Origin: Candidatus Contendobacter odensis Run_B_J11
GTDB taxonomy: Bacteria > Pseudomonadota > Gammaproteobacteria > Competibacterales > Competibacteraceae
Direction: 5' to 3'
Assembly (NCBI RefSeq): GCF_000531125.1
Contig: NZ_CBTK010000190.1
Coordinates: 1 to 32,559, forward strand
Length of the DNA stretch: 32,559 nt
The notes beneath the pieces were generated by a model that had not been told where the DNA came from, did no database searches, and saw only the letters and a list, made by a program, of their open reading frames with translations. The position numbers and the translations under genes are program-made. Below, one piece after another: positions 2,548 through 6,996 of this stretch; the first letter of the stretch is position 1; each line of letters begins with the position of its first letter.

Positions 2548-5500
2548 TTGGATCAGACCCGGTTTGTTTTTTTTGATTTTAACGGCAAGCGATGGAATCA
2601 AGTACGCCTTGCAACCCTGTTGGGGGCGGCGCTCATCCTGATTCTGCTGATCGTCTTCATCCGCGCCGTTCTTGTTCTCCCGAAGTTGGGAAAAACCGAG
2701 GCGCTCCCTCATCCCGAAGCGGGGTTTCACGCTACGACGCGATTGCAGGAATCCATCCCGTTATCGTTGCCTCCACCGGATCGGCTTCGCCAAAAATCGG
2801 GGAGTCCCGCTAAATCGCTTATTCCCAGACCACCTATTACCGCTGAGGATCCAGTATTCCTGGCATTTTATGCGCCGTGGAAGACGGCAGGCTTCGAATC
2901 ACTCAAGTCTCACTACCGGGATATTACCCATCTGGCGCCCGAATGGTTTTCGATGAAAAGTTTCGAGGAGCCTCTCGTTGCTGATCCTGATGGGCAGATT
3001 GCCAGATTCAGCACTTCGACCGGGGTGAAGCTGCTGCCGCTGCTGTCAAACCTTAACAACAACAATTGGCAACCGGAAATCGTAGAGGATCTGGCCCGAC
3101 ATCCAGAGAAAAGGCTGTCCTTCTTCGAGAAGCTTAAAGATGAGTTACAGGCCGTTGACGCAGCGGGCGTCCTGATCGACTGGCAGCAGGTGGATCCAAT
3201 TTATCAAAAAGAGTTTACGTCACTCCTGGCCGACCTGGCGGATTACCTCCATGCTGAGCAACTTGAACTCTGGCTCTGTATCCCGGTTGGCAATGATATT
3301 GCGATTTTCGACCTCGATGCGCTCGCCGGGGTGGTGGATCGGTTTGTTGCGCTGCTCTATGACGAAAATGGCGAGGATGATTCCGCTGGTCCTACCGCCT
3401 CTTTGCCTTGGTGGAATGAATGGCTGGAGGTGTTGCTGGAGCATGGTGATCCCAAGCAGTGGGTCGTGGGTATCGGCAACTACGGCTATGACTGGCCCGA
3501 AGGTGGTCAGACAGCAACCCTGAGCTTTGAGGACGCCATGGCCCGCACTCGGTTGGCGGGAACTCAAACGGTCAGCGTCGAACCGCCCCTTTACCAACCG
3601 CATTTCACCTATGAAGAGAGTGGCGTCCTGCACACAGTCTGGTTCCTTGACGCCGTGACCTTCCGCAACCAATACGCCATCGCCCTCAACAAGGGGGTCG
3701 GCGGCGTGGCGCTGTATCGTCTGGGTCACGAAGACCCTGCGGTTTGGTCATTGATTGCCAATTCTGGCCTGAATTCCAGCGTACTGGAGCCGCTTACGCC
3801 TGCCGACACCGTAGCCAACATCGGCAAAGGCGATGTACTCACCGCTGTCAATCAACGGGAACCTGGCCATCGCCGAATCACTGCGTCCACCACTGCGCCC
3901 TGGGAAGCTCGTTATGAAAAATTTCCAAGCTATCCAATTATCTATCATCGTGGCGGCGGGCCAACAAACCAAGTGGTGCTGAGCTTTGACGATGGCCCCA
4001 ACCCGGTTTGGACCCCGCGTATCCTCGACATCCTCAATGCGGAGGGCGTGAAAGCGGTCTTTTTCGTGGTGGGGAGCCAGGCGGTTGAACATCCGGCGCT
4101 CATCCGCCGCATCATCGCCGAGGGTCACGAACTGGGTAATCACTCCTACTCGCATCCCGACCTTGCCAAAGCCACCGAACAGCGCACCGTGTTTGAACTC
4201 AATGCGAATCAGCGGATTCTCGAAGGGATTGCGGGCGTTTCAACCCTGCTGTTTCGCCCGCCGTATCACGCTGACACCTATCCTGAGTCATTCACTGAAT
4301 TTATGACCCTGGTGAAAGCGCAGGAACTGGGCTATCTGACGGTAGCTGAGAGCATTGATAGCGAGGACTGGAACGAGCCAACGCCCGATACTGTTTTTGA
4401 GCGGGTGAAGGCACATCGCGCCGAAGGCAATATCATCCTGCTCCACGATGGCGGCGGCGACCGTTCCGCCACGGTTGAGGCGTTGCCGCGCATCATCCGC
4501 TATCTGCACAACCGGGGCGACCAGATCGTGACGGTTGGGACGTTGCTCAATCTGCCGCGTGAGGTGCTGATGCCGCCCATCCCCGCCGATGATCCGGCAA
4601 ATTCCCGGTTGGTCGCGCAGACCGGACTTAACCTGATGCAAAAGATGGAAGCGCTGGCCTGGACGTTCATCGTCGGGGCGACCCTGCTGTTATTCCTGCG
4701 CAATGTACTGGTGGCAATCCTGGCGCTGCGGCACCAGCAGATCGAACAACGGCAGCCGTCCGCCCCAACCCTTCGGCAGCCAGTGTCGGTGGTGATCGCC
4801 GCATACAACGAGGCCAAAGTGATCGCGTCCACCCTGCGGTCGATCCTGGCCAGTGACTACCCTGGCCGGTTAGAGATCATCGTGATTGATGACGGTTCGA
4901 CCGATAACACCTTGGCGATTATTCAGGAGCTGGCAGCGCAGGAGCCACGGGTTCGGGCGTTCACCCAACCCAATCGGGGAAAAGCGTATGCCTTGCAGCG
5001 GGCGCTGGGGATGGCCCGCCATGAATTGATCGTTATGCTGGACGCCGATACCCAGTTTCAGCGGGAGACCATTCGCTTCCTGGTCGCGCCGCTGGCACAG
5101 CCCGCCGTCGGCGCGGTCTGCGGGCATATTCGGGTCGGCAATCTGAGCTCGTGGATCGCTCGCTTTCAGTCGCTTGAATACATTTGCGGCTTCAACCTGG
5201 ATCGGCGTGCCTATGACTACTGGAATGCGATTACGGTCGTGCCGGGCGCAACCAGCGCCTTCAAAAAGTCAGCCATCGCCAAAGCCGGTGGCATCGTCGC
5301 CGATACCTTGGCTGAGGACACCGATCTCACCTTTCACCTGCATCGGGCAGGCTACCAGATTCGCTATATGCCCCAGGCGGTGGCCTATACCGAGGCCCCG
5401 GACACGATACGGATATTGGTTCGGCAGCGGGTGCGCTGGGCGTTTGGGACTTTGCAATGCCTGTGGAAGCATCGCGATCTGGTGGGCAGCTTCAAGCATC

Positions 5501-5892
5501 CGGGACTGGGTTGGTTTAGTTTGCCGAGCGTGTGGTTCTGTCAGATGTTGCTGGTCGCGCTGGTGCCGGTAGTTGATGTCATGCTGATTCTGTCGCTGAT
5601 TTGGGGAGCGGGCGGGGCATTGGCGGGCTATGCGGTGTTCTTCTTTGCGCTGGAGTGGGCGATGGCGCTGCTCGGTTGTCATCTGGAAGGAGAACCTCTG
5701 CGGACCTCGCTGCGGATCTTTCCAATGCGAATCGTCTACCGACCACTGCTGTGCTATGCCGTATGGGCCTCCATTATCCGGGCGTTGCGTGGCGCGTGGT
5801 ATGGCTGGGGCAAACAGGATCGCAAGGGCACGGTAAACCCACTGGAGGATCGGGTTGAAACGACTCAGGAAACCACCCAAAAGGCGGCATGA
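2548..5892 (+). CDS. Membrane exopolysaccharide synthase: GH18-like + NodB deacetylase + GT2 glycosyltransferase
   Basis: This 1114-residue fusion has a membrane segment at about residues 20-45. A GH18-like domain (about 100-430) follows. A NodB polysaccharide deacetylase (about 470-690) has FDDGP at 480-484, the metal-binding HSYSH at 532-536 and RPPY. After a second membrane segment near 700 comes a family-2 glycosyltransferase (about 745-1000) with DD 781-782, DAD 832-834, EDTD 923-926 and QRVRW 960-964, the pattern of processive enzymes such as PgaC, NodC and hyaluronan synthase. Hydrophobic C-terminal segments follow. The product is likely an N-acetylhexosamine-containing polymer that is partly deacetylated outside the membrane; this is inference. 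In the GH18-like domain the expected catalytic Glu after IDW is Gln213, so it may bind rather than cut glycan. The TTG start is forced: an in-frame stop lies at 2539-2541, the next Met is near residue 137, and a good ribosome binding site is present. Confidence 0.88.
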   Translation: MDQTRFVFFDFNGKRWNQVRLATLLGAALILILLIVFIRAVLVLPKLGKTEALPHPEAGFHATTRLQESIPLSLPPPDRLRQKSGSPAKSLIPRPPITAEDPVFLAFYAPWKTAGFESLKSHYRDITHLAPEWFSMKSFEEPLVADPDGQIARFSTSTGVKLLPLLSNLNNNNWQPEIVEDLARHPEKRLSFFEKLKDELQAVDAAGVLIDWQQVDPIYQKEFTSLLADLADYLHAEQLELWLCIPVGNDIAIFDLDALAGVVDRFVALLYDENGEDDSAGPTASLPWWNEWLEVLLEHGDPKQWVVGIGNYGYDWPEGGQTATLSFEDAMARTRLAGTQTVSVEPPLYQPHFTYEESGVLHTVWFLDAVTFRNQYAIALNKGVGGVALYRLGHEDPAVWSLIANSGLNSSVLEPLTPADTVANIGKGDVLTAVNQREPGHRRITASTTAPWEARYEKFPSYPIIYHRGGGPTNQVVLSFDDGPNPVWTPRILDILNAEGVKAVFFVVGSQAVEHPALIRRIIAEGHELGNHSYSHPDLAKATEQRTVFELNANQRILEGIAGVSTLLFRPPYHADTYPESFTEFMTLVKAQELGYLTVAESIDSEDWNEPTPDTVFERVKAHRAEGNIILLHDGGGDRSATVEALPRIIRYLHNRGDQIVTVGTLLNLPREVLMPPIPADDPANSRLVAQTGLNLMQKMEALAWTFIVGATLLLFLRNVLVAILALRHQQIEQRQPSAPTLRQPVSVVIAAYNEAKVIASTLRSILASDYPGRLEIIVIDDGSTDNTLAIIQELAAQEPRVRAFTQPNRGKAYALQRALGMARHELIVMLDADTQFQRETIRFLVAPLAQPAVGAVCGHIRVGNLSSWIARFQSLEYICGFNLDRRAYDYWNAITVVPGATSAFKKSAIAKAGGIVADTLAEDTDLTFHLHRAGYQIRYMPQAVAYTEAPDTIRILVRQRVRWAFGTLQCLWKHRDLVGSFKHPGLGWFSLPSVWFCQMLLVALVPVVDVMLILSLIWGAGGALAGYAVFFFALEWAMALLGCHLEGEPLRTSLRIFPMRIVYRPLLCYAVWASIIRALRGAWYGWGKQDRKGTVNPLEDRVETTQETTQKAA

Positions 5893-5895
5893 CCG

Positions 5896-6996
5896 ATGAG
5901 AATGATCCACCTGTTGCTAATTCTGGCGACATGCCTCTGTGGGCCATCGGCTCATGCGCTCCCGCCGGAACCGCAAGGAGAAACCGCGTTGCACGCTGAG
6001 CCGCTCAAGCTGGTTATTCCAGACGGGCAGGCTTACGCCGGAGCCTATATTGACTTTGGCGAACGCGAGGACACCGTGACCCTGGAACAGATCGAACACT
6101 TCGACCAACTGGTGGGCAAGCAGCAGGCCATCGTGGCGTTCTCCAGCGACTGGGGTAACCAAAGCTTTCCCAACCAGCAGCTTGCGATCATTGCCAACTA
6201 CGGCGCGGTACCGCTGGTCTACTGGTCGCCCTGGGATCGGCCAGTGCATGAGAACCTCCCGCCCGGCCAGCGGGGGCGCTTCGATCTGCGGACGATTCTG
6301 GCCGGCCAGTGGGATGGTTATATTGACCTGTGGGCCACCCGCGCCAAGGAGTATGGCCAGCCGCTTTTCGTCTCCTGGGGACTGGAGATGAACGGCGAGT
6401 GGTTTCCATGGTCCGGGGTTTTTTATGGGAAGGGCGAACCGGTGGAAGGTTGCGCCAATTGCTTTGCTGGCCCGGAGATGTTCAAAAAGGCTTATCGCTA
6501 TGTGGTGGATCGGGTGCGGGCCAAGGGAGCGGCGAACATTCTATGGGTCTGGCACCCGAACAACAGCTCCAATCCTGACGAACCCTGGAATGCCATGGCC
6601 TCGTATTACCCCGGCCCGGACTATGCCGACTGGCTCGCGCTCAGCGCCTATGGCTCGCAGTATCCGACCGAGAACTGGATCAGCGTGGAGAGCGCAATCA
6701 CTGCTTATTATAAAAAAATCAGCCAGGTAGATCCGAACAAGCCCATCATGCTGGGGGAATGGGGTGTCGGGGAGTTTCCAAAAGCGGGCGATAAGGCACA
6801 ATGGTTCACCGACTTTTTTCAGCGGGCGCCCAAGGAATTTCCGAGGTTGCGCGCCGCAATCTTCTGGCATGAGCGCTGGCAGAACGGCGATCAATCCTTC
6901 AGCAATCTCCGGGTCAATTCTTCCGCCGAGGCGCTCGAAGCGTATCGAAAAGGAATTGCTGACCGTTTCTGGCTCTCCAGGCCCATTTTCAAGTAA
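5896..6996 (+). CDS. Secreted glycoside hydrolase, family 26-like
   Basis: The 366-residue product starts with a signal peptide (MRMIHLLLILATCLCGPSAHA, likely cleaved after about residue 22), so it acts in the periplasm or outside. The rest resembles GH26 (beta-mannanase clan A barrel). The presumed acid/base is Glu164 in GLEMNGEWFPW and the presumed nucleophile is Glu288 in LGEWGVGEF. In typical mannanases the first motif reads HEMNG; here the His is Leu, so substrate specificity may differ. It follows the synthase gene by 3 bp and is almost certainly co-transcribed. That pairing suggests it trims or releases the exopolysaccharide made by its neighbour rather than digesting plant mannan; this is inference. 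The second ATG at 5902 is an alternative start. Confidence 0.82.
   Translation: MRMIHLLLILATCLCGPSAHALPPEPQGETALHAEPLKLVIPDGQAYAGAYIDFGEREDTVTLEQIEHFDQLVGKQQAIVAFSSDWGNQSFPNQQLAIIANYGAVPLVYWSPWDRPVHENLPPGQRGRFDLRTILAGQWDGYIDLWATRAKEYGQPLFVSWGLEMNGEWFPWSGVFYGKGEPVEGCANCFAGPEMFKKAYRYVVDRVRAKGAANILWVWHPNNSSNPDEPWNAMASYYPGPDYADWLALSAYGSQYPTENWISVESAITAYYKKISQVDPNKPIMLGEWGVGEFPKAGDKAQWFTDFFQRAPKEFPRLRAAIFWHERWQNGDQSFSNLRVNSSAEALEAYRKGIADRFWLSRPIFK

Follow-up and report, generated by a model that had tools for sequence, protein, structure and literature searches.

The window, a 32,559-nucleotide stretch of DNA from Candidatus Contendobacter odensis Run_B_J11, carries two adjacent ORFs on its forward strand. 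The first encodes a large fused synthase and the second, as the preliminary description had it, a secreted GH26-like protein whose ATG lies 3 bp (CCG) beyond the stop of the fusion. The features of the locus are:

2548..5892, + strand: fused synthase ORF, TTG start, 1114 aa; N-terminal transmembrane segment (TM), GH18-like domain, NodB (CE4), TM, processive-type GT2, C-terminal TMs
2593..2697, + strand: N-terminal membrane anchor, aa 16–50 (hydropathy; model helix 14–42)
2848..3774, + strand: GH18-like domain, aa 101–409; fold retained, Gln in place of the proton-donor Glu
3184..3186, + strand: codon CAG for Q213, at the GH18 catalytic Glu position (DxxDxDxE)
3955..4557, + strand: NodB/CE4 deacetylase domain, aa 470–670; all checked motif residues intact
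4597..4752, + strand: transmembrane helix ahead of GT2, aa 684–735 (hydropathy, model)
4777..5502, + strand: GT2 catalytic domain, aa 744–985, PgaC/IcaA-like; D782, DxD 832–834, ED 923–924, QxxRW 960–964
5500..5790, + strand: C-terminal transmembrane helices, aa 985–1081 (hydropathy, model)
5896..6996, + strand: GH26 ORF, ATG start, 366 aa; secreted protein, lichenase-type (CtLic26A) GH26
5896..5955, + strand: signal-peptide-like hydrophobic N terminus of GH26, aa 1–20 (hydropathy)
6385..6387, + strand: E164, GH26 catalytic acid/base Glu, present in 35/35 partners
6757..6759, + strand: E288, GH26 catalytic nucleophile Glu, present in 35/35 partners

The nearest flanking genes tested – those for DHFR, an ApaH-kind phosphoesterase and a phosphoribosyltransferase – are unrelated and on the other strand. 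Pfam and PDB sequence searches did not yield an identity for the F5/8C neighbour protein.

The three-domain polypeptide first described is borne out by the ORF, by an AlphaFold model (pLDDT 88.8), and by three Pfam matches over cut-off: Glyco_hydro_18 (aa 180–393, 43.2 bits), Polysacc_deac_1 (aa 472–575, 110.4 bits) and Glycos_transf_2 (aa 747–910, 118.3 bits). In the model, aa 101–409 align with the GH18 chitinase 5jh8 (Z 34.1, 2.2 Å, 304 aligned), and aa 703–1099 align with Chlorella virus hyaluronan synthase (Z 31.1, 2.7 Å, 375 aligned), membrane part included. This second alignment and the processive-type motifs uphold the description of the GT2 as processive; a grouping with non-processive transferases was not seen. 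The best-scoring model for the GT2 is the PgaC/IcaA equivalog TIGR03937, although its 194.1 bits fall below the cut-off of 422.3. Domain order, hydropathy and the model place CE4, TM and GT2 in that order on one chain, with the deacetylase predicted to lie outside the membrane and the GT2 inside.

The second ORF matches Pfam Glyco_hydro_26 with 45 bits (cut-off 20.2). Its AlphaFold model (pLDDT 86.9) aligns with the GH26 lichenase CtLic26A at Z 35.2, against 26.5 for the next group, the mannanases. CtLic26A is the closest solved protein in both fold and sequence, with 28% identity and both catalytic glutamates in common. The two differ in that the window gene adjoins a synthase, and in the residue before the acid/base Glu, which is His in CtLic26A and Leu, Val, Asn, Ile or Cys in the 35 partners.

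The fusion by itself is widespread, occurring in at least eight phyla among the best 80 of 577 matches, and fusions of related design have been published; the suggestion that the one-chain combination is new was therefore not sustained. A total of 106 fusions were tabulated, after one frameshifted sequence (L053) and one duplicate (L081, of L048) had been left out. GH26 pairing marks a single clade of 39 fusions, found in Competibacteraceae, Thermodesulfobacteriota and Verrucomicrobiota; a further fusion, split across two contigs (G476), is not among the 39. The other 67 fusions fall outside this clade, and four of them (L046, L077, L099, L125) end less than 1 kb from a sequence end, so that a GH26 gene beyond it would escape. 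Conservation of the neighbour was confirmed in the clade: 32 of the 39 fusions have a GH26 gene downstream on their own strand, and 36 of the 38 genomes carry one. Five clade fusions that have no adjacent GH26 or lie at a contig end have one elsewhere in the assembly (one round of this assembly-wide look-up comprised 50 of the 80 listed loci, 20 of them clade members and 30 others).

The pairing also holds at the level of whole genomes. Among 684 genomes from two phyla, 19 have both genes, none has the fusion only, one has GH26 only, and 664 have neither. In Verrucomicrobiota, 9 of 387 genomes have a fusion-profile match and the same 9 have GH26; in Thermodesulfobacteriota the fusion-profile match is found in 10 of 297 genomes, and GH26 in the same 10 plus one more. 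Two first-look candidates were scored per genome in this survey, so misses are possible, and 3 of the 19 positive genomes (G059, G062, G070) also contributed rows to both search profiles. In a set of 59 kin genomes, including that of the window, the same four have both the fusion (at least 66% identity) and GH26. Distances between fusions and between their GH26 partners are correlated, with r of 0.89 for 35 pairs and 0.59 for 21 spread rows, and in each case none of 2000 permutations gave a value as high. A chance neighbourhood was rejected on the strength of the genome-level co-occurrence.

This conservation of the pair supports the compact two-gene system that had been proposed, and the locus can with good confidence be regarded as a functional two-gene module. 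A different account is that GH26 feeds on outside beta-glucans and is a mere genomic passenger of the fusion. Its secretion and its nearest solved relative, a lichenase, are compatible with such a role, as is the GH26-only genome (G673), which has a 322-bit GH26 match and no match to a clade-type fusion. That account is nevertheless improbable: the presence of GH26 follows the fusion across the 684 genomes, even where the genes are unlinked, and the divergence of one protein parallels that of the other. It is likely that GH26 acts on the polymer made by the fusion.

The 14 largest groups of neighbouring genes within 6.5 kb were inspected for a third family, and none is common to more than 3 of the 38 loci across phyla. 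Placement of GH26 in a larger operon was rejected, as the bigger neighbour groups reflect synteny within one verrucomicrobial group, or frames opposite the GH26 strand. A second fusion in the same genome (L042, 38%) was rejected as another copy of the system; it has no adjoining GH26 and retains the GH18 Glu.

The Gln at the GH18 catalytic position was absent from the first reading. The catalytic Glu is the proton donor of the GH18 family. Since the donor is lost, the window GH18 is probably not the glycan-cleaving module proposed in the preliminary description; judged from its sequence, it is very probably non-catalytic. GH18 chitinase-like lectins of the YKL-40/SPC-40 type, which have lost the catalytic Glu and bind glycans, share the same fold, and such chains are among the structural matches of the fusion model. 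Those lectins are soluble animal proteins, whereas the window GH18 is fused to a synthase.

The Glu is gone in 17 of the 39 clade members and present in all 67 fusions outside the clade. On the tree, a minimum of nine changes is needed to account for its loss, all within the clade, which holds 35% of the tree length. GH26 is unlinked at three Glu-less loci (L056, L204, L181); at a fourth (L075) a contig end cuts the locus and GH26 is elsewhere in the assembly, and at a fifth (L080) a search of the assembly did not find it. The remainder of the domain is well kept in the clade, where conservation reaches 90% or more at 55 positions, Trp 242, 292 and 305 among them. A general decay of GH18 is unsupported: mean identity for GH18 and GT2 is 0.465 and 0.620 in the clade and 0.349 and 0.556 in other fusions, and in both groups no domain varies more than GH18, whose relative variability is not raised in the clade. 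The substitution of W390, seen in 38 of 39 clade members, was dropped as proof of an inactive domain because chitinase 5jh8 has Tyr at the aligned position.

Q213 might also be a neutral or lineage-specific change, with GH18 still an enzyme or transglycosylase and GH26 adding a second, unrelated activity. Retention of the Glu in 22 of 39 clade members and of D211 in 37 of 39 would agree with this, but the invariance of the family's proton donor in the other fusions makes it unlikely, and the W390 substitution, despite the Tyr of 5jh8, points the same way.

Four independent pairs were available for comparing GH26 with Glu loss: none showed the expected difference, a mean of 1.2 differed the opposite way and 2.8 did not differ. 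These four pairs lend no support to an association; a sign test on them says little and, if anything, goes against it. The arrival of GH26 and the relaxation of GH18 represent a single origin, and their association is confined to one clade.

The other two domains are intact throughout. The NodB metal Asp/His/His and motif residues (D481, D482, H532, H536, R570, H633) are present in 106 of 106 fusions, and the GT2 motifs D, DxD, ED and QxxRW were found in every sequence reaching each site, one incomplete sequence being without the last motifs. Outside the motifs, five GT2 residues (N817, N860, T871, W873, G903) that are over 90% conserved in the 67 outside fusions are substituted in most of the clade. 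These substitutions, and a partner of lichenase rather than mannanase type, would fit a clade that makes another polymer – a glucan or a glucose/amino-sugar hybrid instead of a GlcNAc homopolymer – for which a glucan-type GH26 was recruited, while GH18, which requires an N-acetyl group next to the bond it cleaves, was left without a substrate. This is possible, though doubtful. NodB is intact in 39 of 39 clade members, and an N-acetyl sugar is therefore still expected; moreover, PgaC/IcaA scores of three clade members (173–194 bits) are in about the range of four outside fusions and the genome's own B paralogue (176–209 bits).

Among known systems, PgaABCD, which makes PNAG, is similar in its PgaC-type GT2, NodB-type deacetylase and outer GH-fold domain, PgaB and PgaC being its most comparable members. 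According to the available part of one report, the GH153 domain of PgaB, which is joined to the deacetylase, cuts after deacetylation (PMC5933820). The fusion differs in being a single membrane-anchored chain, in its GH18-type domain in place of GH153, in its separate GH26, and in its GT2 scoring far under the PgaC equivalog cut-off. It also differs in the PgaA-type porin: none was noted beside the locus, and genome-wide there was no match over the TIGR03939 cut-off (366.65) in 11 genomes – that of the window and 10 others with fusions, 9 from the clade and 1 outside – all of which gave partial matches, the best of 64.6 bits (1 of 14 controls exceeded the cut-off).

MatB of Streptomyces, a CE4-GT2 fusion that makes PNAG, likewise has CE4 outside, TM and GT2 inside on one chain; it works with MatA, and the available part of the source names only CE4 and GT2 and mentions no GH26 partner (PMC5972031). 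Gram-negative fusions of a GT with a PgaB deacetylase, lacking pgaA and pgaD, also join synthase and deacetylase without a porin (Bundalovic-Torma 2020, PMC7112194). The GT fusion is described there as N-terminal, and GH18, catalytic loss and a GH26 partner go unmentioned in the available part of that paper (PMC7112194). A GH18-NodB-GT2 fusion with GH26 was not found among the literature matches listed, which covered few subscription papers. Since GT2-deacetylase fusions are already in print, the fusion itself is not special; what stands out is its pairing with GH26.

On balance, the data lean toward a two-gene synthase-dependent exopolysaccharide module in which polymer cleavage passed to GH26 and GH18 has turned, or is turning, into a non-catalytic part that holds the glycan. 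On the cytoplasmic side, the GT2 of the membrane-anchored fusion would polymerise a beta-linked chain that probably contains N-acetylhexosamine; the chain would go through the fusion's own membrane helices, and NodB would deacetylate it on the inner membrane's outer face. GH18 would be the ancestral built-in hydrolase, whose catalysis is lost or being lost in the clade and whose most likely role is now to hold or guide the chain. Cleavage would fall instead to the secreted GH26, which would trim, release or clear the deacetylated chain, much as the PgaB GH domain may do for PNAG. Whether GH26 has functionally replaced GH18 is an even call, and any replacement is incomplete because 22 of 39 clade members retain the GH18 Glu. 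We know of no characterised GH26 that cuts GlcNAc or GlcN polymers, and action on an amino-sugar polymer would, if true, be new as far as we are aware. Tentatively, this could be a new pathway, in which the fused GH18 serves as a chain-holding pseudoenzyme and GH26, with ordinary retaining chemistry independent of the N-acetyl group, cleaves an amino-sugar polymer, deacetylated or hybrid, that the fused synthase makes.

Hydrolases are kept beside several polymer synthases, as with BcsZ, PelA and AlgL. The pair bears on the question of why synthases keep an adjoining hydrolase, PgaB among the cases. In one clade of a widespread synthase a further hydrolase, of a different family, is present, and the built-in one has repeatedly lost the proton donor. 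Thanks to this natural experiment, what the hydrolase does could be probed using two genes and substitutions at a single residue. The pair is also a candidate for matrix-polymer production in Competibacteraceae. Granulan, a granule polymer, has been extracted from Competibacteraceae enrichments, according to the available part of the source (PMC12016536); no link to it is claimed.

In a different setting, a GH26 (WpsE) is listed in an Actinoplanes Wzx/Wzy cluster (PMC13390465, a 2026 paper available in part). Although it is not clear in the window GH26, a lipobox-like Cys was seen by eye at the N terminus of several of its relatives.

The two open reading frames of the preliminary description are present at their positions, and the second begins 3 bp after the first:

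2548–5892, + strand: fusion of 1114 aa; from N to C terminus it has a membrane anchor, GH18-like domain, NodB deacetylase, membrane helix, GT2 domain and more membrane helices
5896–6996, + strand: secreted GH26 protein of 366 aa, as had been claimed

The closest flanking genes tested on both sides are on the opposite strand and unrelated to these two, so the pair stands alone. The genome is 4.6 Mb and 99.5% complete.

AlphaFold models were made for the fusion (54-row alignment, pLDDT 88.8, pTM 0.71) and for the GH26 protein (22-row alignment, pLDDT 86.9). The modeled GH18 part resembles chitinase 5jh8 (Z 34.1, 2.2 A, 304 residues), with the spore enzymes SleL also among its structural matches, and residues 703 to 1099 resemble the processive hyaluronan synthase of Chlorella virus (Z 31.1, 2.7 A, 375 residues). 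The GT2 domain has D782, DxD, ED and QxxRW – the complete set of processive residues – and is thus of the processive type, as first described, rather than a non-processive transferase. Its best NCBIfam model is PgaC/IcaA at 194 bits, with the cut-off far above at 422. The GH26 model is closest to the lichenase CtLic26A (2cip; Z 35.2, 1.8 A, 271 residues), while mannanases score far lower (Z 26.5 and below).

Such fusions are not rare: a scan of named genomes gave 577 matches, and the best 80 of them, assigned to phyla by their record titles, include Verrucomicrobia, Thermodesulfobacteriota, Acidobacteria, Gemmatimonadetes, Bacteroidetes, Firmicutes, Cyanobacteria and Proteobacteria. The novelty at first seen in having these activities on one chain is therefore not supported: synthesis and deacetylation on a single chain are already known from MatB of Streptomyces, a CE4-GT2 fusion with PNAG as product (PMC5972031), and from glycosyltransferase-deacetylase fusions without pgaA and pgaD that have been reported in Gram-negatives (PMC7112194). 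In the PNAG system, PgaB first removes acetyl groups from the polymer and its GH domain then cuts the deacetylated product (PMC5933820); here, instead, synthase, deacetylase and GH18 share one chain.

The special feature is the pairing with GH26, not the fusion itself. One clade, with SH-aLRT 99 in a 64-row tree of NodB-GT2 columns and support of 0.994 in a FastTree tree of 106 rows, holds 39 of the 106 tabulated fusions. Of these 39, 32 have a GH26 gene downstream on the same strand, 30 as the direct neighbor and two within 3 kb. No GH26 was found beside the 67 other fusions; in four of these the fusion ends close to the limit of the sequence examined. Of the seven clade fusions without a neighboring GH26, two (loci L058 and L075) end at a contig edge, and five (L055, L056, L075, L181 and L204) have a GH26 elsewhere in the assembly. 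The assembly search found no GH26 for L080; for L058 it gave only a weak match to a different GH26 (193 bits). In all, 36 of the 38 genomes with clade fusions have GH26. Across phyla, no third neighbor family recurred at more than 3 of the 38 loci. The fusion-GH26 pair is real, conserved and well delimited.

The two genes also occur together in whole genomes. In Verrucomicrobiota (n = 387) the fusion profile (E at most 1e-100) and the GH26 profile (E at most 1e-60) matched an identical set of 9 genomes; in Thermodesulfobacteriota (n = 297) the fusion profile matched 10, and the GH26 profile the same 10 plus genome G673. The fusion searches scored only two candidates in each genome. Over the 684 genomes, 19 have both, none the fusion only, one GH26 only and 664 neither (Fisher p 4e-36, genomes counted without correction for kinship); three of the 19 contributed rows to both search profiles. 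The GH26 of G673 (contig C168, 2868–3824) scored 322 bits, and no clade-type fusion was matched in that genome. Fusion and GH26 distances are correlated (r 0.89 over 35 pairs, r 0.59 in 21 spread rows); for each set, 2000 permutations never gave so high a value. Of thirty genomes with non-clade fusions, none gave a strong GH26 match and four gave weak ones (45–125 bits). A second, more distant GH26 group (L157–L163, about 200–270 bits to the profile) occurs in many of the same Verrucomicrobia, and no fusion was seen beside it at the four loci examined (L157–L160).

The window's own phylum was searched in 398 genomes, and GH26 was found in the window's genome only (E at most 1e-50). The pair is patchy among the window's kin: of 59 kin genomes, this one included, four have both genes, and five further genomes from that genus lack both. 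The four kin fusions are placed in the tree among Thermodesulfobacteriota and Verrucomicrobiota, which hints at transfer.

The loss of the GH18 catalytic Glu is the one testable surprise. The acid of GH18 enzymes is the Glu of DxxDxDxE; when aligned to 5jh8, the window fusion has Gln at this position (residue 213, codon CAG at 3184). The Glu is kept in 67 of 67 non-clade fusions versus 22 of 39 in the clade, where it is replaced by Gln (11), Gly (3), Ala, Ser or Asn (1 each). By parsimony, which does not distinguish losses from regains, the position changed at least nine times, always inside the clade, which is 35% of tree length; the chance of this, if changes fell randomly along the tree, is about 8e-5. 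The other domains show no such loss: all 106 fusions have the NodB residues that were checked, every sequence that extends to the GT2 residues has those too, and the GH26 catalytic Glu pair is present in 35 of 35 partners. In one non-clade fusion, from the Bacillota (Pseudalkalibacillus; L108, 8926–12267), Asn replaces the Asp before the Glu, the sole such case among the 67.

The clade has 55 GH18 positions conserved at 90% or more, versus 31 in the other fusions. Trp 242, 292 and 305 are among these and are not typical of the others. This constraint fits a retained binding part better than decay, although diversity within the clade is also lower than among the other fusions. GH26 may have taken over chain cutting in this clade, with the GH18 having become, or becoming, a non-catalytic part. 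The GH18 mechanism depends on the N-acetyl group of the substrate and that of GH26 does not, so fuller deacetylation, or glucose in the chain, would favor such a change. The polymer itself may have changed: at five GT2 positions (N817, N860, T871, W873 and G903; window 4777–5502) most clade members carry clade-specific replacements of residues that are over 90% conserved elsewhere in the fusion family, possible marks of an altered donor or acceptor.

Against a takeover by GH26, more than half of the clade still has the Glu, and L080 lacks it with no GH26 found. We know of no GH26 that acts on amino-sugar polymers. Because the association has a single origin, independent contrasts cannot separate GH26 arrival from a relaxed GH18; of four independent pairs (GH26 versus Glu loss), 0 went the way expected and, on average, 1.2 went the other way. 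No PgaA-type porin scored over the cut-off in 11 genomes tested.

Some individual loci differ in arrangement. One verrucomicrobial genome has two fusion-GH26 pairs in tandem (L178, 2474–11587). In genome G017 (L045, 6521–15074) the pair is flanked by genes for a lysyl-phosphatidylglycerol synthase (PF09924) and a VirJ-family protein (PF06057), all on the same strand. The window's own genome has a second fusion (L042, contig C24, 5319–11011), 38% identical, which keeps the GH18 Glu and follows a 720-aa protein with an F5/8C domain. Relatives of this protein flank L042-type fusions in other Competibacteraceae and adjoin GH26-clade fusions in three Verrucomicrobia (L055, L069 and L082).
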